Positions 5,024 through 20,613 of a stretch of 64,000 nt of DNA are shown here, piece after piece. The DNA is from Streptomyces sp. NBC_01431. GTDB taxonomy: Bacteria; Actinomycetota; Actinomycetes; Streptomycetales; Streptomycetaceae. The notes under the pieces were generated by a model. The model ran no database searches. It was not told where the DNA came from and saw only the letters and a program-made list of their open reading frames with translations. The number at the start of each line of letters is the position of its first letter. The first letter of the stretch is position 1. The stretch is taken from positions 2,666,001-2,730,000 of the forward strand of contig NZ_CP109496.1 in NCBI RefSeq assembly GCF_036231355.1. Direction: 5' to 3'. The translations under genes were made by a program, and so were the position numbers.

Positions 5024-5384
5024 GACTTTCCTCCTTCTCGGACGTACATCTCCGGGACGGACCCTCACGGGCTGCCACGGGATGGGAGAAGTGCTACGTC
5101 CTCGGGAAGGGGAGCGCACGGGAGGTCGATCGGGTACGACTTGCGCACTTCGTCCGACACCGGCGATCACCCCCGAGCGACAACCACTGGCCACGCGTTC
5201 GCGCAACCTACTGGACAGGCCCTGCCGGAGCAGAGACCCCCCTGTCCACGGCCGGTTCCACTGCCACCGGCCGGCCCGGTGGGGACCCAATGGGGCAACA
5301 GCGCCGAGTGGTTGTCGGGCTGGTGCGTTATTGGACCGAGCGTGGCCGATCGTGGTGCATTCGGAGCCGCGACACAAGGGGGGT

Positions 5385-5665: not shown

Positions 5666-6634
5666 TTAGAAGAGCACCCTCGCCAGCGCCGTTCGCGCCG
5701 CCGTGACGCGCGGATCGTCGCCGCCGATCACCTCGAAGAGTTCGAGGAGGCGGACCCGGGCCGCGTCCCGGTCGTCACCGAACGTGCGCCGCACGGTCTC
5801 GATGAGCCGGCCGAAGGCGTCCTCGACGTGACCGCCGACCAGATCGAGGTCGGCCGCCGTGATCTGCGCCGCCACATCGGCGGGCTTCTCGGCGGCTTCC
5901 TTGCGGACCTTCAGGGGGTCGAGCCCCTGGACGCGCTGGAGCAGTTCGGCCTGCGCCAGACCGAGCTTGGCCTCCGGGTTGCCCGGATCGTCACTCAGTA
6001 CGTTCCGGTACGCCTGGACCGCGCCGGGCAGATCGCCCGAGTCCAGGGCGACCACCGCGGCTTCGAGCAGAGCGTCGTACGGGCCGGCCGGCAGCGGAGC
6101 GTCGGCGGGCGCGGCCGCGGCGTCCTGGTCGACCGCGATGCCGGTCAGGCCGAAGCGCTCCTCGGCGACCTGCACCAACTGGTCGAGGGTCTCGCGGATC
6201 TGCGCCTCAGGGGCCGCGCCCTGGAAGAGCGGCAGCGCCTGACCGGCGACGACCGCGAAGACGGCCGGGATCCCCTGGATCCCGAACTGCTGCATCAGCA
6301 TCTGGTTGGCGTCGACGTCGATCTTCGCAAGGAGGAAGCGGCCGTTGTACTCGACGGCGAGGCGTTCGAGCAGCGGGCCGAGCTGCTTGCAGGGCTCGCA
6401 CCACTCGGCCCAGAAGTCGATGACGACCGGTACCTCGGTGGAGCGCTGGAGGATGTCGCGCTCGAAGGTGGCCTCGTCGGCGTCGAAGACGAGGGCGGAC
6501 GGCGCGACGGCCGGGGTTCCCCCGTGCCGGGCGGACTCGGCTCGCGCCTGCTCCGCCTTGGCCTTGGCCTCGCCGGCCGCCTTCACCGCGGCGAGGTCGA
6601 CGACGCCGCTCATGGACATGTTCCTAGGCTGCAT
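5666..6634 (-). CDS. Thioredoxin-domain / TPR co-chaperone (YbbN/CnoX type)
   Basis: This 322-residue cytosolic protein has an N-terminal hydrophilic extension, a thioredoxin domain (about 45-155) and C-terminal TPR-like helices (about 185-322), the layout of YbbN/CnoX chaperone-like thioredoxins. The redox motif is WCEPC rather than WCGPC; both cysteines are kept. The cis-proline region GIQGIPAVF is intact. The ATG at 6634 was chosen because GGGGGAGG lies just upstream; further in-frame codons run into the regulatory region. It is transcribed alone, with a terminator at 5532-5569. Confidence 0.88.
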   Translation of the reverse strand: MQPRNMSMSGVVDLAAVKAAGEAKAKAEQARAESARHGGTPAVAPSALVFDADEATFERDILQRSTEVPVVIDFWAEWCEPCKQLGPLLERLAVEYNGRFLLAKIDVDANQMLMQQFGIQGIPAVFAVVAGQALPLFQGAAPEAQIRETLDQLVQVAEERFGLTGIAVDQDAAAAPADAPLPAGPYDALLEAAVVALDSGDLPGAVQAYRNVLSDDPGNPEAKLGLAQAELLQRVQGLDPLKVRKEAAEKPADVAAQITAADLDLVGGHVEDAFGRLIETVRRTFGDDRDAARVRLLELFEVIGGDDPRVTAARTALARVLF

Positions 6635-6816
6635 GCGTACATCCTCCCCCTTCCGCGCACGAGTGTGGTGAACCGGTGGCAGGATCCGGGCCCGCCCGGT
6701 GCCTCCCGCCGGATTGCGAGGCACGGACAGGCCGCGGATCTTCGTTCTTGCGACACCCGGGTCCCCACCCCGGCGCCTGTGACACGTGGTTGTCGCGGAA
6801 GGCCGCTCAAGGCTTT

Positions 6817-6833
6817 CGCTACGAGTCGTAGCG
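6817..6833. promoter_or_regulatory. 17-bp perfect palindrome, probable TetR operator
   Basis: CGCTACGA and TCGTAGCG flank a single central G. It lies in the divergent gap between the thioredoxin-like gene and the TetR gene, 90 bp before the TetR start, and is a natural candidate for autoregulation or for control of the thioredoxin-like gene. Confidence 0.55.
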
Positions 6834-6922
6834 TAACTGGTCCGGACCCCCGCGCACACGGTGATCTCGCCCACACGACGGGCCCCCTGGCGCGATTGCT
6901 ACCGGCCGGTATGGTCGCCGTC

Positions 6923-7558
6923 ATGCCTTCTTCAACCAGTGGCGGAACCCCGTCCTGTGCGACTCGTACGGGCCGGCCTCGCAGCGCCGAGGCCGACGCC
7001 GCGATCCTGCTGGCGACCCGGGAGGCGCTGGTGGACCTGGGCTGGTCGAAGTTGACGATGGGGGACGTGGCGACGCGGGCCGGGGTCGCCAAGACGACGC
7101 TGTACCGGCGCTGGGCCGGAAAGAACGAGCTCGTCGTGGACGCGGTCGCGGTCCTCTTCGACGAGCTCGAACTTCCCGATCTGGGCAGCCTGGTGGCCGA
7201 TGTGGAGGGCGTCGTCCTCCAGTTCGCCGCGCTCCTGGAGCGCCCCGAGACGAAGACCGCGCTCATGGCGGTGGTGGCCGAGTCCACCCGGGACGAAGCG
7301 CTGCGCGGGCGGATCAGGTCGGCGATCGTCGACCGCCAGAAGCGGCTGGTTCTGATCGGCCGGGAGCGTGCGCAGGCCCGTGGGGAGCTCCCCTACGAAT
7401 CCGACCCGGAGCTCTCCGCCCGCCACACCGACCTCATCTTCGATGTGGTGGCCGGGGCGGTGGTGCACCGGGCGCTGGTCAGCGCCGAGCCCGTGGACGA
7501 GGAGTGGGCCCGCGACTTCACCCTCCTCGTCTGCTCGGGCCTGGCCGCGACGGCCTGA
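6923..7558 (+). CDS. TetR/AcrR family transcriptional regulator
   Basis: This 211-residue regulator has a helix-turn-helix in residues about 15-65 (TMGDVATRAGVAKTTLYRRW) and a C-terminal ligand or dimer domain resembling TetR_C_11 members. The start was chosen at ATG 6923 because TATGGT at 6910-6915 is a good -10 element 7 nt before it, implying a leaderless transcript; ATG 6911 would overlap that element, and neither start has a Shine-Dalgarno sequence. The palindrome at 6817-6833 may be its operator. The ligand and targets are unknown. Confidence 0.85.
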   Translation: MPSSTSGGTPSCATRTGRPRSAEADAAILLATREALVDLGWSKLTMGDVATRAGVAKTTLYRRWAGKNELVVDAVAVLFDELELPDLGSLVADVEGVVLQFAALLERPETKTALMAVVAESTRDEALRGRIRSAIVDRQKRLVLIGRERAQARGELPYESDPELSARHTDLIFDVVAGAVVHRALVSAEPVDEEWARDFTLLVCSGLAATA

Positions 7559-7617
7559 GCCGCCGGATTCCGCCGCGGCCGGTCCGGACCCGGGCTCCGC
7601 GGGCCTGACCTGGGCTC

Positions 7618-8613
7618 TCAGACCTGGTAGCGGTTCGGGGCGAACAGCGACAGGTTCTCCTCGACCCAGCTCGATGTCCGCTTCAGGCCCTCCTCCAGGG
7701 AGACTTCCGGCTCCCAGCCCGCCCACTCGCGGGCTCGCGTGTTGTCGGACAGCAGCCGCTCCACCTCGCTGCCCGAGGGGCGCAGTCGCGCCGGGTCGAC
7801 CATCACCGAGGCCTCGCGCCCGGAGGCGGCGATGAGGGCCTCGGCGAGATCCCCGATCGCGATCTCGCGTCCGGTCCCCAGGTTCACCACCTGACCCAGC
7901 GCCCGGTCGCATTCGGCCATCGCCACGAAGCCCCGCGCGGTGTCGGTGACGTAGGTGAAGTCGCGCGTCGGGGTGAGCGAGCCGAGCCTGATCTCCCGTA
8001 CGCCCGCGTGCAGTTGGGCCAGGATCGTGGGGATGACGGCGCGGGCGGACTGGCGCGGTCCGTAGGTGTTGAAGGGGCGCACCACCGTCACCGGCAGCTC
8101 GAAGGCGTGCCAGTGCGAGAGCGCCATCATGTCGGCGCCGATCTTGGAAGCGGAGTACGGCGACTGCGGCTGGAGCGGGTGGTCCTCGCTGATCGGGGCG
8201 GTCAGGGCTGTTCCGTACACCTCGCTGGTGGAGGTGTGGACGAGGCGGCGCACGGAGTGGCGGCGGCAGGCCTCGGCGAGGTTCTCGGTGCCGACCACGT
8301 TCGTCTGGACATAGGCGCCCGGGGAGTCGTAGCTGTACGGGATGCCGATGAGGGCGGCGAGGTGGAAGACGGTGTCGCAGCCGGCCACCGCGTCCGAGAC
8401 CCGGCCCGCGTCGCGGACGTCCCCGGCGATCATCTCCACCGACGGGTGGCTCATCAGGTGGGCCAGGTGGCCCTTCTCGGCGTACGGCTTGTAGTGCACG
8501 AACGCCCTGACGTTCGCGCCGAGTTCGAGGAGCTGGTCGACCAGGGTCGAGCCGATGAAGCCCTCGGCTCCGGTGACCAGGACGGTGCGGTTCTTCCAGA
8601 CGGACAGGCTCAT
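7618..8613 (-). CDS. NAD-dependent epimerase/dehydratase, LegB-like (nucleotide-sugar 4,6-dehydratase type)
   Basis: This 331-residue extended short-chain dehydrogenase should act on a nucleotide sugar. Visible motifs are the Rossmann glycine motif TGAEGFIG (14-21), a STSEVYG stretch at about 128-134, and the catalytic YSASK (Tyr153, Lys157). The FVHYKPYAEKG and HLAALIGIPYSY stretches resemble LegB, the UDP-GlcNAc 4,6-dehydratase of legionaminic acid pathways, but no other legionaminic acid gene is present, so the substrate is uncertain. The start at 8613 overlaps the stop of the MurG-like gene by 4 bp (ATGA), so the two are coupled. AAGGAG lies 11 nt upstream. Confidence 0.8.
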   Translation of the reverse strand: MSLSVWKNRTVLVTGAEGFIGSTLVDQLLELGANVRAFVHYKPYAEKGHLAHLMSHPSVEMIAGDVRDAGRVSDAVAGCDTVFHLAALIGIPYSYDSPGAYVQTNVVGTENLAEACRRHSVRRLVHTSTSEVYGTALTAPISEDHPLQPQSPYSASKIGADMMALSHWHAFELPVTVVRPFNTYGPRQSARAVIPTILAQLHAGVREIRLGSLTPTRDFTYVTDTARGFVAMAECDRALGQVVNLGTGREIAIGDLAEALIAASGREASVMVDPARLRPSGSEVERLLSDNTRAREWAGWEPEVSLEEGLKRTSSWVEENLSLFAPNRYQV

Positions 8614-9758
8614 GCTGCGTGGTACTCCTTGGCGTACGAGGTCGGGTGGGCGGCGAGTTCGAGGACCCGGGCGGCCAGCAGGTCCGCGGCACGGGCGTGG
8701 TTGCCGGGGTCGGCGGCACCGCTCATCGAGGCGAGCCGGGCCGGGTCGGCGAGGAGCGGCTCGATGAGGGCGGCCAGGCGGAACGCGGTGGCCTCGGCGT
8801 CCGGCACGAGCAGTCCCGCGCCCGCGTCCGAGAGGACCCGCGCGTTGTGGGTCTGGTGGTCGCCGGGCGCGTGCGGATAGGGCACGAGGACGGCGGGCAC
8901 GCCGGTGACGGCGAGTTCGGCGACGGTTGCGGAGCCTGCCCGGCACACGACCAGGTCGGCGGCGGCGTAGGCGAGGTCCATCCGGTCCAGGTAGGGCACG
9001 GCACGCGCGCCGGGCAGCGCGGACAACTGCCTTTGGGTGTCGGCCAGTTGGGCGGGACCGGTCTTGATGAGGAGGTGGACGTCGAGCCGGTCGCGCCAGT
9101 GTCCGGCAAGGCCGACGGCCGCCGCCGTGAGCCGGGCGGCGCCGAGGCTCCCGCCGTTGACGAGGACGAGGCGCGCCCCGGGCGGCACCCCGAGCGCCCG
9201 CCGGGCCTCGGCGCGCAGGGTCGGCCGGTCGAGCGCGGCGAGCGAGGCGGCGATGGGCATGCCGGTGGTGACGGCGTCCTGACCGCCCGACAGATGGGCG
9301 CGGCTGCGGTCGAAGGCGACCGCGATGTGCGGGGTCAGACGCGCCGCGAACTGGTTGGCGCGCCCCGGCACGGCGTTGGACTCGTGGATCAGGCTGGGCA
9401 GCCCGGCCATCTTGGCGCCGACGATGACCGGCGCGCTCGGGTAGCCGCCCATGCCGACCGCGACCTGGGCGCGCTGCGCCTTGAGGATGGCCCGGCACTG
9501 CGCGCCCGACTTCAGCAGCGCGGCGGGCAGCAGATACCGCCGGGCGCCGAGCGAGGGGTCGAAGGGAATCATGTCGACGGTGTGCAGGTGGTACCCGGCG
9601 CCGGGTATGAGCTCGCCCTCCAGGCCCCGGGTCGTACCGACGAAGGAGATCACCGCGTCGGGGACGGCCCGGCGCAGTGCCTCGGCGAGTGCGAGCCCGG
9701 GGTAGATGTGCCCGCCGGTACCGCCCGCCCCGATCACTACTGACAATGGTGTGCGCAT
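8610..9758 (-). CDS. MurG-like UDP-GlcNAc glycosyltransferase (GT28) paralogue
   Basis: This 382-residue protein has the two-domain GT-B layout of MurG: an N-terminal GGTGGHIYPGLALAEAL motif (about 11-27), GMGGYPSAP, an acceptor-loop HESN, and a C-terminal nucleotide-sugar site ending in a DHQTHNA motif. MurG itself adds GlcNAc to lipid I and normally sits in the division cluster. No mur, fts or dcw gene is nearby, and the partner here is a LegB-like epimerase, so an accessory role on an undecaprenyl-linked or secondary-metabolite sugar is more likely than essential MurG function. No clear ribosome-binding site precedes ATG 9756-9758. Divergent from a response regulator gene across 63 bp. Confidence 0.8.
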   Translation of the reverse strand: MRTPLSVVIGAGGTGGHIYPGLALAEALRRAVPDAVISFVGTTRGLEGELIPGAGYHLHTVDMIPFDPSLGARRYLLPAALLKSGAQCRAILKAQRAQVAVGMGGYPSAPVIVGAKMAGLPSLIHESNAVPGRANQFAARLTPHIAVAFDRSRAHLSGGQDAVTTGMPIAASLAALDRPTLRAEARRALGVPPGARLVLVNGGSLGAARLTAAAVGLAGHWRDRLDVHLLIKTGPAQLADTQRQLSALPGARAVPYLDRMDLAYAAADLVVCRAGSATVAELAVTGVPAVLVPYPHAPGDHQTHNARVLSDAGAGLLVPDAEATAFRLAALIEPLLADPARLASMSGAADPGNHARAADLLAARVLELAAHPTSYAKEYHAA

Positions 9759-9781
9759 GAGACCGAGGTTCACGGGGCGGC

Positions 9782-9799
9782 CTAAGAGGGTTCTAAGAG
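9782..9799. promoter_or_regulatory. Direct repeat, probable OmpR-type response regulator site
   Basis: CTAAGAG occurs at 9782-9788 and again at 9793-9799, spaced 11 bp start to start, as expected for tandem binding of a winged-helix OmpR/PhoB regulator on one DNA face. It sits in the 63-bp divergent gap between the MurG-like gene and the response regulator gene, so it could control both. Confidence 0.5.
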
Positions 9800-9821
9800 C
9801 CGCGTTTGGCAGGCTTTGCCC

Positions 9822-10517
9822 ATGAGCACCACGCGCACGTTCAGAATTCTCGTCGTCGACGACGAGCCGGAGGTACGCGCGGCCGTCGAGGACGGCCTCG
9901 CGGTGGAGGGGTACGAGGTCCGGGGCGCGGTCGACGGGCTCGCGGCGCTCTCCGAGGTGGCCGCCTGGCGGCCGGACGCGATCATCCTGGACGTGATGAT
10001 GCCGGTCCTGGACGGCCTCGGGGTGTGCCGCCAGCTGCGGGCGATGGGCGACCGCACTCCGGTGCTCGTGCTCACTGCGCTCGATTCGGTGAGCGAGCGG
10101 GTGGACGGTCTGGAGGCGGGCGCGGACGACTATCTGGTCAAGCCCTTCGCCCTGGACGAACTCATCGCCCGGGTACGGGCGTTGCTGCGGCGGGCGGCAG
10201 CCGATCCCGCCGAGCCGCAGGAGCTGCGGTACGCCGATCTGGTCCTGGACCCGGTCGCGCACACCGCCCGCCGGGGCGAGCGCCCGATCGACTTCACGCG
10301 CACCGAGTTCGCCCTGCTCGAACTGCTGATGCGCAACCCGGGGCAGGTGCTCCCGCGCGAGCTGATCCACGAGCTGGTGTGGGGGCGCGACTTCGGGCCC
10401 GACTCCAACTCCCTCGCCGTGTACGTGGGTTATCTGCGCCGCAAGCTGGAGACGGCGGGCGAGCCGCGCCTGGTCCACACGGTGCACGGCGTCGGCTACC
10501 GCCTGGACGCCTCGTGA
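9822..10517 (+). CDS. OmpR/MprA-type response regulator
   Basis: This 231-residue protein has a receiver domain (about 7-120) with acidic pocket VDDE, phosphoacceptor Asp in LDVMMP, Thr in LTALD and Lys in VKPF, followed by a winged-helix DNA-binding domain (about 135-231) ending in [14 protein letters not shown] 9822 is preferred over a TTG two codons earlier. It is coupled to the histidine kinase gene by a GTGA overlap. Direct repeats at 9782-9799 are a likely autoregulatory site. Confidence 0.93.
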
Positions 10518-11929
10518 GTTCCCGGCGCCGTCTCGGTGCCCGCTGGCGCCGCCACCGTCCGCTGCGCACCCGACTGGCGGTGGCCGCCGCCGCCGCGGTG
10601 GCGCTGGTCGCGGTCGGGGTCTGCACCGCCGCGTTCTTCGTGCTCCGCTACGAGCTCAACCACCAGCTCGACCTGAATCTGACCCAGTCGGCGACGCTGG
10701 CCATCCAGCAGAACCGGGGCTCGGCCCCGGGCGTGCTGGCCGGGGAGTGCCGCTTCCTGTCCGCCCCCGCCTGCGCGCAGGTCGTCCCCGCCGCCCCGGC
10801 CAAGGACCCCGCCAAGCCCTATCTGCTGCCGGTGAGCCCGCCCGTGCGCGAGGTCGCCGCCGGTGAGCGCAGGCCGTACTCCACCAACATCACGCTGCCC
10901 GACGGCGAGCCCGCGCGGATGCTCACCACCAACTTCCCGGGTGGTGGCAAGGCGCTCCAGGTGGCACTGCGTTCGGACACCGTGCGCGAGGGCGTGCGCC
11001 AGGCGGCGTGGCTGCTCGGCGGGGTGGGGGCGGCCGGGGCGCTGCTGGCCGCCGGGCTCGGCTACTGGGTGTCGCGCACCGGGCTCGCTCCGGTGGCCCG
11101 GCTCACCGCGACGGCCGAGCACATTGCGGCCACCCGGGACCCGAGCCACCGCATCGAGCTGCCGCCGGGCCCGCCCGACAAGGAGGACGAGGTGACGCGG
11201 CTCGCGGCGTCCTTCAACACCATGCTGGGCGAGCTGGAGCAGTCCGTGACGGCCCAGCGCCGCCTGGTCGCCGACGCCTCCCACGAGCTGCGCACGCCAC
11301 TGACCGCCCTGCGCACCAACGCCGAACTGCTCGCCCGCGCCGACCGGTTGACGCAGGCGCAGCGAGACCGGGCATCAGCCGCTCTGGGCCGTCAGATCAG
11401 GGAGGTCTCCGTTCTGGTCAACGACCTGATCGACCTGGCGAGGGACGAGGAGCCGACGCCGCTCCTGGAGGAGGTTCGCCTCGCCCCGCTGCTCGCGCAC
11501 ACCGTGGACACGGCCCGCGCGCACTGGCCCGCGACCCCGTTCCAGCTGGATCTCACCGACGCCTCGGCCACCCTGCCCGGCGTCCCCGCACGGCTCGCCC
11601 GCCTCATCTCCAACCTTCTGGACAACGCGGCCAAGTTCAGCCCGCCCGGCGCCCCCGTCGAAGTCACCCTGTACGCGGGCGAGTTGACAGTTCGGGACCA
11701 CGGGCCCGGTATCGCGGAGGCCGACCTGCCCCATGTCTTCGACCGCTTCTACCGCGCCGAGCAGGCGCGCGCCCTGCCCGGCTCGGGCCTCGGCCTGGCG
11801 ATGGCCCGCCAGATCGCCCGCGCGCACCGAGCGGAGCTGACGGCACATCAGGCAACCGGCGGCGGCGCGCTGTTCCGTCTGACCCTGCCGACCGCGGCGG
11901 CCCCGGGCAGGTCGAGCACAATGCCCTGA
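10514..11929 (+). CDS. Sensor histidine kinase (HAMP, HisKA, HATPase), MprB-like
   Basis: This 471-residue membrane kinase has a basic N-terminus, a first transmembrane helix (about 23-47), an extracytoplasmic sensor loop of about 120 residues, a second helix (about 160-180), HAMP, the H-box [11 protein letters not shown]-box LLDNAAKFS and G-boxes DHGPGIA and GSGLGLAM. The GTG at 10514 overlaps the TGA of the response regulator gene (GTGA), and this start gives the expected basic N-terminus before the membrane helix. The signal sensed is unknown; the divergent MurG-like/LegB-like pair makes an envelope signal plausible. Confidence 0.92.
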
Positions 11930-11954: not shown

Positions 11955-12779
11955 ATGTCATCGGTACCCACCTGCATACTCGGCAGCTTCGAAGCACCCC
12001 AGGCCCGGCACGGCCACGACCTCGACGCATACGTCGAGATCGGCTCGCTCACCAAACCGCTGACCGGCACCGCGATGCTCGGCCTCGCAGCCCGGGGAAG
12101 GCTCGAACTGGACGCCGGCGTCGAGGAGTTCCTGCCCGTCCCGCCCGGCACCGGCATCACCCTGCGGCATCTCGCCGAGCACACCTCGGGACTGCCCCGC
12201 CTGCCGCCGCACCTGCGCCGTCTGGACCCGTACGCAGGCTTCGACGCCCAGGCCCTGGACGCCGTGCTGCGGGACCTCGCCTCCCTGGCCACCAGGCCAC
12301 CGGGCCAGGCGGAGGAGTACTCCAACCTCGGTTACGCCATCCTTGGCGCCGCGCTCGCCTCGGCCGCGGGGATGCCGTACGAGGAGCTTCTGAACCGGTA
12401 CGTGCTTGTGCCCCTGGGCATCGCCGAGGTGACCTCAGCGCCGCCCGCGGACCGGCGGCTCACCGCGCGCGGCCTCTTCGGACGCCCGCGCCGGCCCTGG
12501 ACCATGGACGGCGCGATCCTCCCCGCCGGCGGCCTGTGGGCCACCCCGCGCGCGGCCGCCCGGCTGGTGACCGCGCTGCTCGTCGAACGGCGCCTGGGCG
12601 AGCCCGCGCCGTCCTGGCAGACGGCCGGTCCCCTGCTCTGGCACAACGGCGCCACGGGTGATGCCTCCGTCTTCACGGGGGCCATGCCGGACGGCAGGTG
12701 GGTGCTGGTGCACCGGCTGAGCGGGCGGTCGGACGAGACGGACGAGCTGGGCATCGAACTCCTGCGGCAGGCCGGCTGA
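11955..12779 (+). CDS. Serine hydrolase / beta-lactamase family protein (class C type)
   Basis: This 274-residue protein has the serine beta-lactamase-like catalytic motifs SLTK (31-34) and YSN (122-124), with a WHNGATG stretch near residue 230 standing in the place of the third KTG/HxG box. There is no signal peptide, and the SxxK motif is unusually close to the N-terminus, so the N-terminal strand region is shorter than in most relatives. Likely an esterase or peptidase rather than a true beta-lactamase. It begins 26 bp after the histidine kinase, without a clear ribosome-binding site, and may be read through from it. Confidence 0.82.
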   Translation: MSSVPTCILGSFEAPQARHGHDLDAYVEIGSLTKPLTGTAMLGLAARGRLELDAGVEEFLPVPPGTGITLRHLAEHTSGLPRLPPHLRRLDPYAGFDAQALDAVLRDLASLATRPPGQAEEYSNLGYAILGAALASAAGMPYEELLNRYVLVPLGIAEVTSAPPADRRLTARGLFGRPRRPWTMDGAILPAGGLWATPRAAARLVTALLVERRLGEPAPSWQTAGPLLWHNGATGDASVFTGAMPDGRWVLVHRLSGRSDETDELGIELLRQAG

Positions 12780-15759: not shown

Positions 15760-16779
15760 ATGTCCCGGTACCGCGCCCTCCTCGCCGCCGCGCTCCTCAC
15801 CGCCGTCGCGGGCTGCTCGTCCGCCTCGTCCGGCTCGACCGGCGAACCCGCCGTGATCCAGGGACACCCCCAGATCGAAGCGGCCCCGCAGGCGGCGCCC
15901 GGATCGCCGTTCTGGGTCGACCCGGAGAGCGACGCGGCCCGCCAGGTCAAGGTCTGGGAGAAGCAGGGCCGCAAGGCCGACGCCCGGGCGCTGCGCCGGA
16001 TCGCCCAGCAGCCGGTCGCCATCTGGCCGGCCGGGAGCGACCCGCAGCCCGCCATCCGCAAGGCCGTCGCCGGCGCCGCCAAGGACGGGCGGACCGCGCT
16101 GTTCGTCGCGTACAACATCCCGCACCGCGACTGCGGCAAGTACTCGGCGGGCGGGGCGGACGGCGTCGAGGGCTACCGCGGCTGGTACGGCATGTTCGCG
16201 GAGGCGATCGGCGACGCGCGGGCCGTCGTCGTCCTGGAGCCGGACGCGGTGGCGCACATGGTCGACGGGTGTACGACGGCCGACCACCACGCCGAGCGCT
16301 ACCAGCTCCTGGCCGAGGCGGTCGAGCATCTCAAGCAGCTGCCGAACACCAAGGTGTACCTCGACGCGGGCAATCCCTCCTGGATCCCCGACCCCAGCAG
16401 CCTCGTCGAGCCCCTCAGGCGGGCCGGCATCGACAAGGCGGACGGGTTCGCGCTGAACGTGTCCAACTTCCAGACCGACACGTCGGTGCGGGCGTACGGC
16501 GTGAAGCTGGCCCAGCGGCTCGACGGCAAGCACTTCGTCATGGACACCAGCCGCAACGGCGAGGGGCCGTTGATGAACGACCACGACCAGGCCTGGTGCA
16601 ATCCGCCGGGGCGGTCACTCGGTGCGCCGCCGTCGGTCACGACCGGGGACGCGCTCATCGACGCGTTCCTGTGGATCAAGCGGCCGGGGGATTCCGACGG
16701 GCCCTGTCGCGGGGGCCCGTCCGCGGGGACGTGGTGGCCGGACTACGCGCTGGGGCTCGCGAGGCACGCGCGGGGTTGA
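15760..16779 (+). CDS. Glycoside hydrolase family 6 lipoprotein (CslZ-like endoglucanase)
   Basis: This 339-residue exported protein has a signal peptide ending in the lipobox AVAGC (Cys19), so it should be a membrane-anchored lipoprotein. The catalytic domain shows both GH6 signatures: YNIPHRDCGKYSAGG, and VVVLEPDAV with the catalytic Asp. GH6 enzymes cut beta-1,4-glucans. It converges on glxA-cslA, and in Streptomyces a GH6 protein (CslZ) is a known partner of that pair, trimming the tip polysaccharide. The start at ATG 15760 has GGGGAG 6 nt upstream. Confidence 0.88.
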   Translation: MSRYRALLAAALLTAVAGCSSASSGSTGEPAVIQGHPQIEAAPQAAPGSPFWVDPESDAARQVKVWEKQGRKADARALRRIAQQPVAIWPAGSDPQPAIRKAVAGAAKDGRTALFVAYNIPHRDCGKYSAGGADGVEGYRGWYGMFAEAIGDARAVVVLEPDAVAHMVDGCTTADHHAERYQLLAEAVEHLKQLPNTKVYLDAGNPSWIPDPSSLVEPLRRAGIDKADGFALNVSNFQTDTSVRAYGVKLAQRLDGKHFVMDTSRNGEGPLMNDHDQAWCNPPGRSLGAPPSVTTGDALIDAFLWIKRPGDSDGPCRGGPSAGTWWPDYALGLARHARG

Positions 16780-16839
16780 CGCCCAGGCCCCGCAGGCCCC
16801 GCCCCCGCTCCTCGATCGCCGATGGGGACTTGTTCCCGG

Positions 16840-18795
16840 TCAGTCGATGCGCAGCCACTTCGCCTCCGAAGGCGTGCCCTCCTGGTCCGTCACGAAGAGC
16901 ATGTACCAGCCGGGCGGGACCAGGGCCCGGTCCTTGGGGACCGTGACCGTCACCGAGTTCCTGTCCTTCGTCAGGCCCAGTTCGATCGAGCGCTGTTCCA
17001 CGTCCGTCGTGTGCGTCACCGCGCTCGGCCGCATCAGCCGGGCCTTCACGATGCGTTCAGGGTGGTCGGACTCGAACGTCGCCCGGCCGTCGCCCGCGGC
17101 CGCCTGGGGGCCGTCCCCGAGTGCCGGGCGCAGGTTCTTGTCCCGGTAGAGGTAGGGCGGGGTGTAGACCTCCATGCGCTGCTCGAACTTGCCGAGCTTG
17201 GTGTTGTCCTTGTCGCCGAAGAGCGAGTCGGAGCCGAAGGTCGCGACCCGCCCGTCGGGCAGCAGCAGCGCCTCGGAGTGGTAGTTGCGGCCGATCGTGG
17301 GGTCCGCCGCCTCGCGGAACGCGTTCGCCTTGGGATCGTAGAACTGCGCCTTGAGGATGTTGGACGCCCCCCGGCCGCGGTAGCCCTCGGATCCGCCACT
17401 GCTGAAGACCGAGTCGTCGGGCATGATCACGCTGTTCAAGTACCGGGTGCCCTGCGGGAGTTCGGGGCCCGACTTGAACGCCGGGCTGTCCTGCTTCAGG
17501 TCCACCACGGCGGTGCGCGGCGTGGACTTGTCGGACTCGCCGACCCCGCCGCCGCCCAGCAGCATGAACCGCTGGTCCTGGGCGGGGGGCAGCAGGAGCG
17601 AGCTGGCCGTCTCCAGCTGGTCGGTGGCGTTCAGACCGCCGATCTTGGTGAAGGTGTTCTTGTCGACGTCCCACAGGCCCGGCTCGCGGCCCTTGTCGGC
17701 GGGCCCGTACCCGGCGTTCGCACCCGAGTAGAAGAGCTTGCCGCTCTTGGTCAGGAACAGCGAGGGATAGGTCGGGAAGTAGCGGAAGGGGCCCTTGGAC
17801 CACTGCTTCGTCTTCGGGTCGTAGACCTCGTTGTCGCCCGCGAGGATGGCGCCCACGTCGTCGAGCCCGGAGACCGCGAGGACCCGGCCGTCCTGGAGCG
17901 TGGTGAGCGTCGGGTACCAGCGCGCCTCCTTCATCGGGGCGACGGGGACGTACTTCTCGGCCTTCGGATCGAATTCGTACGCCGCCCTGATGCCCTGGAA
18001 GTCCTGCTTGTCCAGGGTCAGTTTCTCGGCGAGGCCGTACACGTTCTCGGCGTCGTCGCCCGTGAGGCCCTCGATCTCGTACTGGGCCCGGCCGGTGGCG
18101 ACCGACCGCGAGCCCTCGGCGACCGCCTCCACGAAGACCCGCGCCTCGGCCGCGATGACCTTGGTCTTCCGGGGCTTCACCTGGCCGGTCGCGTAGTACG
18201 AGACCTGGAAGTCACGCTTGGCGCGCGGCACCGTGACGTCGAGCTTGGAGACGTACTCCACGCCCGAGGGGGACCGGAACCTGGTGCCCTTCCTGATCGT
18301 GACGGCCCTGTCCGGGTTCTCGTTCTTCACGCGCATGCCGCCGCCGGCCCGCTTCACCCCGTCGCCGAGCACCTCGTAGCGGGCCGTGCCGCCGGCCACC
18401 AGGAGGTTGCCGTTGGGCAGTTGGGCGTGGCCACCGCAGAAGAAGTCCTCGGGGGTGGGGATCTTCTTGAACGAGTTGTCCTTCGGGTTCCACAGCACGG
18501 TGTCGAAGGTGCCCGCGTCGAAGTGGTCCTGCTTGTTCCCGGAGCCCGCGATGATCAGCACCTTGCCGGTGTGCAGCAGCGCCGCGTGGATGGCGTTGGT
18601 GCGGTACTCCTTGGGGATGTCGACGTCGTTCCAGGCACCGTACTTCGCCATGTACTCGGGCTGTGCGATCTCGTAGGCGTGGTACTGCTCGGTGGCGAAG
18701 GAGAGCGCGGCGGGTGCGTTCAGGCCCGCCAGGAGCACCACCGCGCCGCCGCCGAACAGGTTCTTCTTCATCCGCTTCGAGGGCCGGTAGGCCAT
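16840..18795 (-). CDS. glxA: GlxA radical copper oxidase (galactose oxidase-like)
   Basis: This 651-residue protein has an N-terminal membrane or signal segment (about 12-33), a seven-bladed kelch-type propeller and a C-terminal DUF1929-like domain. Copper-site elements are visible: Cys120 in FFCGGH (the partner for the Tyr-Cys cofactor), the GRNYHSEALLLPDG stretch supplying Tyr and His ligands, and THTTDVEQRS supplying the last His. GlxA oxidises the polysaccharide made by CslA at hyphal tips and is needed for normal morphology. It starts 3 bp after the cslA stop, with GGAGGGA inside the cslA end, so the two form an operon. Confidence 0.92.
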   Translation of the reverse strand: MAYRPSKRMKKNLFGGGAVVLLAGLNAPAALSFATEQYHAYEIAQPEYMAKYGAWNDVDIPKEYRTNAIHAALLHTGKVLIIAGSGNKQDHFDAGTFDTVLWNPKDNSFKKIPTPEDFFCGGHAQLPNGNLLVAGGTARYEVLGDGVKRAGGGMRVKNENPDRAVTIRKGTRFRSPSGVEYVSKLDVTVPRAKRDFQVSYYATGQVKPRKTKVIAAEARVFVEAVAEGSRSVATGRAQYEIEGLTGDDAENVYGLAEKLTLDKQDFQGIRAAYEFDPKAEKYVPVAPMKEARWYPTLTTLQDGRVLAVSGLDDVGAILAGDNEVYDPKTKQWSKGPFRYFPTYPSLFLTKSGKLFYSGANAGYGPADKGREPGLWDVDKNTFTKIGGLNATDQLETASSLLLPPAQDQRFMLLGGGGVGESDKSTPRTAVVDLKQDSPAFKSGPELPQGTRYLNSVIMPDDSVFSSGGSEGYRGRGASNILKAQFYDPKANAFREAADPTIGRNYHSEALLLPDGRVATFGSDSLFGDKDNTKLGKFEQRMEVYTPPYLYRDKNLRPALGDGPQAAAGDGRATFESDHPERIVKARLMRPSAVTHTTDVEQRSIELGLTKDRNSVTVTVPKDRALVPPGWYMLFVTDQEGTPSEAKWLRID

Positions 18796-18798
18796 GGC

Positions 18799-20613
18799 TC
18801 AGTTCCCTCCGGTCGGCGTGGCGATGGCGGGCTCCGCATCACTCGCGGGGCTCGCCGGGACGGCCTTGCCGGCGGTGCGGGCCGCCGCGCGCTCGCGCAG
18901 TGACGTCCAGGACCAGATCGCGGCCGGCGCGAGCGCGATGCACAGCGCGAGGACGGCCCAGGTGCGCATGGCGGCGTGGGTGTGGTGGTAGCGGACGGAG
19001 GCGATCAGCGAGGCGGTCAGGACGGCCGCCCAGAACAGGTGGATGCGGAAGGTCCACAGCCGGTCGGGGCTGGCCTCGCCGCCCTTGGGAGTGACGACGA
19101 ACCGGCCGGGGGTGCGCAGCACCGCCGAGCCGAGCGACTTGAGGTAGATGGGCGCCGAGAGCGCCGACATGCCCATCCCGGCGAGCCCGCCCGAGCCCTC
19201 GGGTTCGTGCGGCGAGACGTTGTGCCGCCGGTTCCACAGGTACAGGCCGATCTGGAGGGCGGCCGCGTCGCTGTAGAGCATCAGCCAGACCGAGGCGGTG
19301 ACCTCGGTGCCGGACGCTCCGAACCAGAGGAACAGGACACAACTGACAACGCCGAGCAGCCAGTTGATGGCCGTCATGGGGTAGTAGACGAGCATCAGGG
19401 TGTACGAGAGCAGCCGGCCGGCCGGCATGGTGAAGGGCGCCTTCCAGTACTGCTTGACCAGCGTCTCGTAGGTACCGCGCGACCAGCGCATCTGCTGGGT
19501 GAAGAAGTCGGTCCAGGAAGCCGGGCCCTCGCCGACGGCCAGCACGTCCGGGGTGTACACGGAGCGCCAGTGGTGGCCCGTCCTCGGGTTCTTGTGCCGG
19601 TGCAGTTCGAAGCCGGTGGCCATGTCCTCGGTGATCGAGTCGTACAGGCCGCCAATCTGCCGCAGCGCCGCGATCCGCACCACGTTGTTGGTGCCGACGA
19701 ACATGGGCGCCTGGTAGCGGTTGCCGGCCCGCTGGATCAGCGCGTGGAAGAGGAACTGCTGGGATTCGGCGGCCTTGGTCACCGGCGAGGTGTAGTTCCC
19801 GTACACCTGCGGCCCGACGACGAAGGCGACGTCGGGGTCGCGGAAGTAACCCATCATCCGCTCAAGGAAGTTGGGCAGCGGGGCGTGGTCGGTGTCGACG
19901 GAGGCGAAGAAGTCGTAGCGCCCGCCGTGCATCGCGATCCAGGCGTTGTAGTTGCCGTGCTTGGTGCGGGCCTTGTGGGCGCCCTTCTCGCGGTTCCAGT
20001 CGGGGACGCCCTTGCGGGTGAAGTGACGTACGCCGAGTTCCGCGCAGAGCTGCCTGGCCTGCTCGTCGTCGCCCTCGTCCAGGAGCCAGACGTCCAGGGG
20101 GCCGGTGTGGGTGAGCCGGACGGCCGCCTCCAGGGTGGCCCGCACCATGGATATGGGTTCCTTGCCGGGCACGTACGTGGTGAGGAAGGCGACCCGGGTG
20201 CCGTGTTCGGGGGTGACCGGGACGGGGTCGCGGGCGACCATCGTGGCGTGGGCGACCGAGGCGACGTTGGTGACCATGAACAGTTCGATCAGACCGATCG
20301 AGACGAGCATCGTGATGTCGAGGTTCACCAGCCAGCGGTCGCCGCCCTCGCGCTCGACCCAGTGGGTGGGCCAGACGAGGTAGACGAGCAGCAGGCCGGT
20401 GAGTATGGGCGCGAGCGTCATCAGGAGGATGGCGCGTATGCGGTGCGGCTCCTGGGAGAGCAGGCTCCGGTACTGCACCCGGTACGGCGAGCCGCCCGGC
20501 TCGGTGAGCGGTCCGGCTAGCCGGCTGTGGGTGTCGTAGTCGTAGCCCTCCGGGCGCACGGTGCCCTCCAGCTGTTCGTCGAGCAGGGGTTTCGAACGAG
20601 TCGATATCCCCAC
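18799..20613 (-). CDS. cslA: Cellulose synthase-like glycosyltransferase CslA (GT2)
   Basis: This 604-residue membrane protein makes a beta-glucan-like polymer at hyphal tips. It has two N-terminal transmembrane helices (about 65-120), a cytosolic GT2 domain with DEGDD, the DxD in SVDTDHA, TED, and the processive QQMRW motif, and further helices at about 395-430, 440-460, 535-550 and 560-580. The GTG at 20613 is the only start that keeps the conserved N-terminus; no strong ribosome-binding site is seen. cslA leads the cslA-glxA operon, and its product is known to interact with polar DivIVA. Confidence 0.92.
   Translation of the reverse strand: MGISTRSKPLLDEQLEGTVRPEGYDYDTHSRLAGPLTEPGGSPYRVQYRSLLSQEPHRIRAILLMTLAPILTGLLLVYLVWPTHWVEREGGDRWLVNLDITMLVSIGLIELFMVTNVASVAHATMVARDPVPVTPEHGTRVAFLTTYVPGKEPISMVRATLEAAVRLTHTGPLDVWLLDEGDDEQARQLCAELGVRHFTRKGVPDWNREKGAHKARTKHGNYNAWIAMHGGRYDFFASVDTDHAPLPNFLERMMGYFRDPDVAFVVGPQVYGNYTSPVTKAAESQQFLFHALIQRAGNRYQAPMFVGTNNVVRIAALRQIGGLYDSITEDMATGFELHRHKNPRTGHHWRSVYTPDVLAVGEGPASWTDFFTQQMRWSRGTYETLVKQYWKAPFTMPAGRLLSYTLMLVYYPMTAINWLLGVVSCVLFLWFGASGTEVTASVWLMLYSDAAALQIGLYLWNRRHNVSPHEPEGSGGLAGMGMSALSAPIYLKSLGSAVLRTPGRFVVTPKGGEASPDRLWTFRIHLFWAAVLTASLIASVRYHHTHAAMRTWAVLALCIALAPAAIWSWTSLRERAAARTAGKAVPASPASDAEPAIATPTGGN

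Follow-up and report, generated by a model that had tools for sequence, protein, structure and literature searches.

MurG-like glycosyltransferases have already been published from Streptomyces in the form of MglA (PMC8092295), a paralogue that in the Streptomycetaceae is encoded outside the dcw cluster, contains both GT28 domains, and occurs in addition to a canonical murG. In Kitasatospora viridifaciens, MglA takes the place of MurG, reportedly with normal lipid II as its product; the reported figures are 31.2% identity to canonical MurG and occurrence in 38% of genomes, and MurG-like proteins are said there to fall into "many different groups" (PMC8092295). Other murG-like genes are reported behind vanHAX/vanO operons, where an extra murG lies next to a cell-wall resistance locus under two-component control (PMC8698665). 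Among the nucleotide-sugar dehydratases, the LegB of legionaminic acid synthesis (TIGR04180) is an NAD-dependent 4,6-dehydratase, and the enzyme of C. jejuni is reported to use GDP-GlcNAc (PMC7439481). With respect to envelope sensing, the kinase CutS is reported to sense disulfides and has two sensor cysteines, a Cys-to-Ser change of which activates it; CutR has the operator TAWATAAA, and CutRS is reported in all Streptomyces tested (PMC12802291).

The locus described here lies in a 64-kb window (the whole stretch of DNA that was analysed) of an 8.98-Mb genome and comprises two divergent gene pairs. On the minus strand, the first gene (8610–9758) encodes a 382-residue MurG-like GT28 glycosyltransferase, here MurG2, and the second (7618–8613) a 331-residue LegB-type dehydratase of the extended-SDR family. 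On the plus strand, a 231-residue OmpR/PhoB-type response regulator (RR; 9822–10517) with Response_reg and Trans_reg_C domains is followed by a sensor histidine kinase (HK; 10514–11929) with HAMP, HisKA, and HATPase_c domains. An earlier note on this DNA had reported a 4-bp overlap of the MurG-like and LegB-like genes and a 63-bp divergent gap carrying CTAAGAG twice with 11-bp spacing, and both observations are borne out. The overlap is the ATGA at 8610–8613, which is kept in 84 of the 95 distinct loci examined for it. The gap extends from 9759 to 9821, up to the ATG start of RR at 9822 on the plus strand, and contains CTAAGAGGGTTCTAAGAG at 9782–9799, that is, two copies 11 bp apart with 0 mismatches. 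A second conserved element, the heptamer TTTGGCA (9805–9811, plus strand), lies next to the RR start; along the MurG2 strand it reads TGCCAAA and forms part of the consensus drawn from 80 named loci (the best 80 of 143).

The family labels of the earlier note stand as close matches, yet both proteins score below the curated cut-offs. MurG2 matches the murG equivalog model TIGR01133 with 246.9 bits (cut-off 250.25), contains both GT28 domains, and has MurGs as its best PDB matches (3s2u, 7d1i, and 1f0k; E = 1e-46 for P. aeruginosa 3s2u). LegB matches Pfam GDP_Man_Dehyd and reaches 429.9 bits over nearly the full length of TIGR04180 (cut-off 475). The earlier note had also turned on MurG2 not being the sole MurG of its genome, and the genome does encode another MurG, a canonical one that shares 41% identity with MurG2, at G000:C1:5982176-5983252, flanked by ftsW-like and ftsQ/ftsZ-like genes in a dcw-type cluster.

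Several other features of the window were recorded. An AmpH/beta-lactamase-like serine hydrolase gene lies at 11955–12779 (plus strand), 25 bp behind HK; it clustered with no gene of the other 20-kb neighbourhoods. A match to the che1 sRNA (Rfam RF02935; 95.3 bits, gathering threshold 54.1) lies at 5161–5248 on the minus strand between two minus-strand genes. Genes at 15760–20613 resemble the cslZ/glxA/cslA polysaccharide cluster of Streptomyces. ARAGORN calls a tRNA-SeC at 17898–17988 (plus strand) inside an opposite-strand 651-residue ORF (16840–18795); as Rfam at the gathering threshold gives no tRNA at this position, the call is probably false.

Linkage of the two minus-strand genes is conserved, as the earlier note had suggested looking for. 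MurG2 (at least 71% identity) occurs in 25 of 101 genomes of the genus, the present one included, or about a quarter of the Streptomyces sampled, with the copy in one genome (G056) reported in two pieces. A matching LegB (at least 81%) is found in the same 25 genomes and is adjacent to MurG2 every time, whereas all other LegBs of the 101 genomes are at most 55% identical. RR adjoins the pair in all 25, and each of these genomes also encodes a canonical MurG. Together with 80 loci from a scan of named Streptomyces genomes (the best 80 of 143), 24 loci of the genus sample gave a set of 104, with 96 distinct MurG2 sequences and eight loci held twice; the divergent order kinase–regulator–MurG2–LegB is complete in 100 of the 104. 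Carriers of the module include S. noursei (L138) and S. natalensis (L103). Of the four exceptions, L086 and L149 are short loci (3,172 and 7,579 bases) in which the kinase was not found, L108 (Streptomyces sp. ERV7, 6001–7884) lacks legB and has a broken murG2 3′ end with intact two-component genes, and L144 (3017–6015) has an MFS gene and others inserted between RR and MurG2.

The surroundings of the four genes vary. In 20-kb neighbourhoods, a thioredoxin/TetR pair on one side and a methylmalonyl-CoA mutase gene on the other flank the majority of loci, six are located beside ileS/lspA-like genes (names read from the sequences) near the dcw cluster, and four have flanks common to no other locus; by marker genes, the 96 distinct loci divide into 67 of the thioredoxin/TetR–mutase type, 6 of the ileS/lspA type, and 23 of neither, some of them on short contigs. 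Since the flanks differ between loci, the four genes sit together at no fewer than six, that is, at least six, chromosomal sites, and no gene beyond the four is common to these sites in the 20-kb neighbourhoods. As read from these comparisons, HK, RR, MurG2, and LegB are one mobile four-gene module, of which no published description was found among open-licence papers. The mean distance between genomes is about threefold larger for MurG2 (0.222) than for canonical MurG (0.072). Over 24 genomes, the distances obtained for the module genes are correlated with one another and about equally with those of canonical MurG (Mantel r 0.55–0.79), so that this comparison does not separate vertical descent from joint transfer.

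The repeat in the divergent gap is conserved to a similar extent. On the MurG2 strand, CTCTTAG-N4-CTCTTAG is present in all 80 named loci (the best 80 of 143) with no more than 3 mismatches over its 14 defined positions: 0 mismatches in 7, 1 in 53, 2 in 14, and 3 in 6, and both TCTTA cores are invariant in 80/80. Within this single 64-kb window, about one match at this stringency is expected by chance; it is the comparative data, 80/80 against 6 matches among the 1,961,882 remaining positions in these loci, that settle the reality of the repeat. RR itself (E ≤ 1e-78) is found in 35 of the 101 genomes, namely the 25 that carry the module and 10 others that lack it. In 6 of the 10 loci that have RR without the MurG2–LegB pair, the repeat lies directly upstream of RR (it is absent there from L192, L194, L200, and L201), and in the split module of L144 one copy of the repeat precedes RR and another precedes MurG2. 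The repeat therefore tracks RR and is kept at both promoters. The combination of a receiver and a Trans_reg_C domain with a direct repeat spaced at 11 bp is that of OmpR/PhoB-type regulation, and the element CTAAGAG-N4-CTAAGAG at 9782–9799, to which no strand is assigned, is a well-supported predicted binding site (operator) of the adjacent RR. Conservation in 80/80 loci, rarity in the control, and association with RR thus make local control of murG2–legB by the adjacent two-component system a well-supported prediction. A scan of the genome itself for the operator pattern returned one exact site, the one in this gap, and three sites with two mismatches; a wider regulon was considered and set aside, as the number of sites does not exceed that of the reversed control (4 forward + 3 reverse), and no further targets are claimed.

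The kinase carries two cysteines, Cys79 and Cys87, in its sensor region that are present in all 95 aligned rows; 94 of the 95 also have a third, Cys37, close to the first hydrophobic segment. Cys79 and Cys87 were placed in an extracytoplasmic sensor by reading the hydrophobic segments on either side. The two invariant cysteines are a likeness to CutS, and by analogy we hypothesize that the module HK may sense disulfide or redox state. Identity with CutRS is ruled out by operator and distribution: CutR binds TAWATAAA, in contrast to the CTAAGAG repeat of the module, and the module RR is found in 35 of 101 genomes rather than in all Streptomyces tested (PMC12802291). The module two-component system is another system.

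In terms of active-site residues, we compared 97 MurG2 rows with 30 canonical Streptomyces MurGs and 5 outgroup dcw MurGs from other actinobacteria, at 16 selected positions (E. coli numbering) where the E. coli enzyme agrees with every one of the 30 canonical rows. MurG2 keeps 13 of the 16: Thr15, His18, Tyr105, His124, Glu125, Asn127, Asn134, Ser191, Arg260, Thr265, Glu268, Gln288, and Asn291. The remaining three, which all 30 canonical and all 5 outgroup MurGs keep, are replaced: Arg163 by Ala, Val, Ser, or Thr in 97/97 rows, Asn198 by Thr in 97/97, and Ala263 by Ser in 95/97. The acceptor loop retains its His, Glu, and Asn, the glycine-rich loops are kept, and the residues of the uracil site are like the canonical ones. 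Dozens of fixed differences from canonical MurG are spread over both domains, including HESN for HEAN. MurG2 and the canonical dcw MurG accordingly have in common the glycine loops and His18, Glu125, Ser191, Glu268, Gln288, and Asn291, and they differ in location, in linkage, and in the three replaced residues of the active-site region. In a docking study that uses PDB numbering (one higher), the residues significant for UDP-GlcNAc binding are reported to include Arg164, Glu269, Gln288, and Gln289 (PMC10966019).

MurG2 was compared with MglA through a group of P0004-like proteins that are about 31% (30.4–33.7%) identical to canonical MurG and occur in 96 of 249 genomes of the family. The agreement with the published 31.2% and 38% led us to treat this group as the putative MglA group. 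MurG2 is 25.8–31.9% identical to 13 members of this group, which stands at about 31% identity to canonical MurG as against 41% for MurG2. All 13 keep Arg163, Asn198, and Ala263 and have Thr for Asn127 and Ala for Ser191. Membership of MurG2 in the MglA group, itself a putative assignment, is ruled out by these identities and fixed residues. The words "epimerase," "dehydratase," and "two-component" do not occur in the text of PMC8092295; given the "many different groups" mentioned there, MurG2 may be among the proteins counted in that work without comment. Normal lipid II is the reported product of MglA even though its putative group departs at Asn127 and Ser191, so that replacements at such positions are in themselves no proof of a new donor or substrate. 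The murG-like genes behind vanHAX/vanO are likewise found beside two-component control (PMC8698665), whereas here the partner is a dehydratase and no vanHAX partner travels along.

For LegB, the motifs TSTSEVYG and YSASK are invariant in 96/96 rows and correspond to the extended-SDR fingerprint [ST]SE...YxxxK; TSE/YxxxK is reported as a GMD-type fingerprint (PMC8987622). Among solved structures, Pal (6bwl, E = 2e-46) comes closest; its motif differs in that alignment, so that it is no functional guide for LegB. With the LegB of legionaminic acid synthesis, the module LegB has in common the fingerprint and a near-full-model match, whereas the genes of that pathway are not common to the sites of the module. 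No LegC above cut-off is encoded in the host genome and its one NeuB-domain gene lies far from the module; a legionaminic acid pathway was rejected, there being neither a LegC above cut-off nor a further gene common to the sites. The host genome also encodes a second LegB (52%; L068 6479–12839, G000:C1 about 1052480–1058840) in a polysaccharide-type cluster with a glycosyltransferase, a nucleotidyltransferase, an SDR protein, and secreted proteins, and LegBs of similar distance are found in other Streptomyces genomes.

The origin of the pair was sought in a phylum sample of 396 genomes; beyond the genus, the closest MurGs there belong to the dcw clusters of deep lineages. In one of these, the uncultured actinobacterium G145, the dcw cluster reads ftsW–murG–nucleotidyltransferase (CBS)–legB–murC–murB–ftsQ–ftsZ (7128–10253 of locus L156, G145:C639; names read from the sequences). 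The MurG of G145 adjoins MurG2 in the MurG tree (support 95/96), and the module LegB groups with those of G145 and G416 in the LegB tree (support 97/96). G145 has a single MurG match, which keeps the Arg, Asn, and Ala at positions 163, 198, and 263 and has Gly at the position of Asn127; a legB neighbour therefore does not require a change in MurG. Within the order of G145, LegB (E ≤ 1e-60) was found in only 1 of 16 genomes. Adjacency of legB as a rule of the donor order was rejected on this count, and the arrangement in G145 accordingly rests on one fragmented assembly of 640 contigs, in which contamination or misbinning of the contig is possible. The simplest account, drawn from long branches and this one fragmented assembly, would be that a murG–legB neighbourhood was captured from a G145-like lineage, lost the nucleotidyltransferase, and was joined to a Streptomyces two-component system, with MurG2 changing beside the resident MurG. 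If the assembly is right, the presence of legB and of a CBS-domain nucleotidyltransferase gene between murG and murC would suggest an unusual peptidoglycan sugar in G145.

The earlier note had proposed that the pair may build a modified sugar on a lipid carrier under control of the adjacent two-component system. The control is supported by the conserved repeat and the predicted site, whereas the sugar on a lipid carrier is something we infer, with the backing of a dedicated dehydratase, three replacements in the active-site region of MurG2, and a concordant origin near a dcw cluster with legB. What is added to that proposal is the mobile four-gene unit, the cysteine pair of HK, the altered active site of MurG2, and the dcw origin. 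Our preferred reading, held tentatively and a little short of an even chance, is that the four genes would form an inducible envelope module in which MurG2 transfers a LegB-derived sugar to lipid I, giving an altered lipid II. HK would read a condition outside the cytoplasm, which may be the disulfide state of the two cysteines that are invariant in its sensor; phosphorylated RR would bind the 11-bp direct repeat and activate the promoters on either side, that of its own gene as well as that of murG2–legB; LegB would convert a nucleotide-linked GlcNAc to a 4-keto-6-deoxy derivative; and MurG2, with its altered donor region, would place this sugar on lipid I, either unchanged or once an unlinked enzyme has reduced it. 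The product would be a variant of lipid II with a different residue at the GlcNAc position. Of the parts, alternative glycosylation of lipid I by the module is likely from these comparisons, and use of the LegB sugar by MurG2 is our best guess, at somewhat under even odds; the signal, the lipid I acceptor, and the LegB product as donor are all elements that we infer. A 4-ketosugar usually needs a reductase or an aminotransferase, and no further gene is common to the sites of the module, so that the lack of a linked enzyme of either kind counts against the preferred reading. The reported use of GDP-GlcNAc by C. jejuni LegB (PMC7439481), set against the normal uracil site of MurG2, counts against it as well.

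The main rival, which we regard as a doubtful but real contender, is that MurG2 is a stress-induced spare lipid II synthase that uses ordinary UDP-GlcNAc, much as MglA does, with LegB serving another glycan and being merely co-regulated. Most catalytic residues of MurG2 are kept, its score falls just below the MurG equivalog cut-off, its uracil site is unchanged, and MglA, whose likely group also departs at conserved positions, replaces MurG (PMC8092295), all of which is consistent with a spare synthase. The ties to the dehydratase speak against it: legB is translationally coupled by position to murG2 (ATGA in 84/95), this LegB is never apart from MurG2 in 101 genomes, and in L108 legB is lost and murG2 broken. 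The residues that MurG2 has lost, Arg163, Asn198, and Ala263, are moreover the ones that the putative MglA group keeps (13/13).

If the acceptor of MurG2 has changed instead, the pair could make a lipid-linked sugar outside peptidoglycan, with LegB supplying the sugar and MurG2 starting another surface glycan or a small glycolipid. We consider this quite unlikely. The dozens of fixed differences in both domains of MurG2, HESN for HEAN among them, and the location of the host LegB paralogue (52%) in a polysaccharide-type cluster point in its direction; the acceptor-loop His, Glu, and Asn and the glycine-rich loops are nevertheless kept, the nearest relatives of MurG2 are dcw MurGs, and, with no gene beyond the four common to the sites, no dedicated polymerase or flippase travels along. 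That unrelated genes have come to lie beside a two-component system by chance is scarcely credible and is refuted by the linkage (co-occurrence in 25/25 genomes and complete order in 100/104 loci, the named ones being the best 80 of 143), by the several chromosomal sites, and by the conserved predicted operator.

It is conceivable, though rather unlikely as a complete account, that envelope or disulfide stress switches on a second lipid II pathway in many Streptomyces, in which a 4-keto-6-deoxy (or reduced 6-deoxy) GlcNAc replaces GlcNAc on lipid I. Since C4 of the GlcNAc residue is the site at which the glycan strand is extended, the modified unit would, if this is true, cap or re-shape peptidoglycan strands, and it could alter recognition by antibiotics that bind lipid II. 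Streptomyces make many lipid II-directed antibiotics, so that such a switch could bear on self-protection. As the enzymes appear to come from a lineage whose dcw cluster includes the dehydratase, that lineage may, on the same supposition, also have a 6-deoxy sugar in its peptidoglycan. The GlcNAc of peptidoglycan is commonly regarded as invariable at the level of lipid II; with an altered MurG and a dehydratase of its own, under regulation, a swap of this sugar in some actinobacteria becomes directly testable. The module also provides a defined promoter, a predicted operator, and a candidate signal with which to ask, following on from the reported work on MglA (PMC8092295), under what circumstances cells require a second lipid II synthase.
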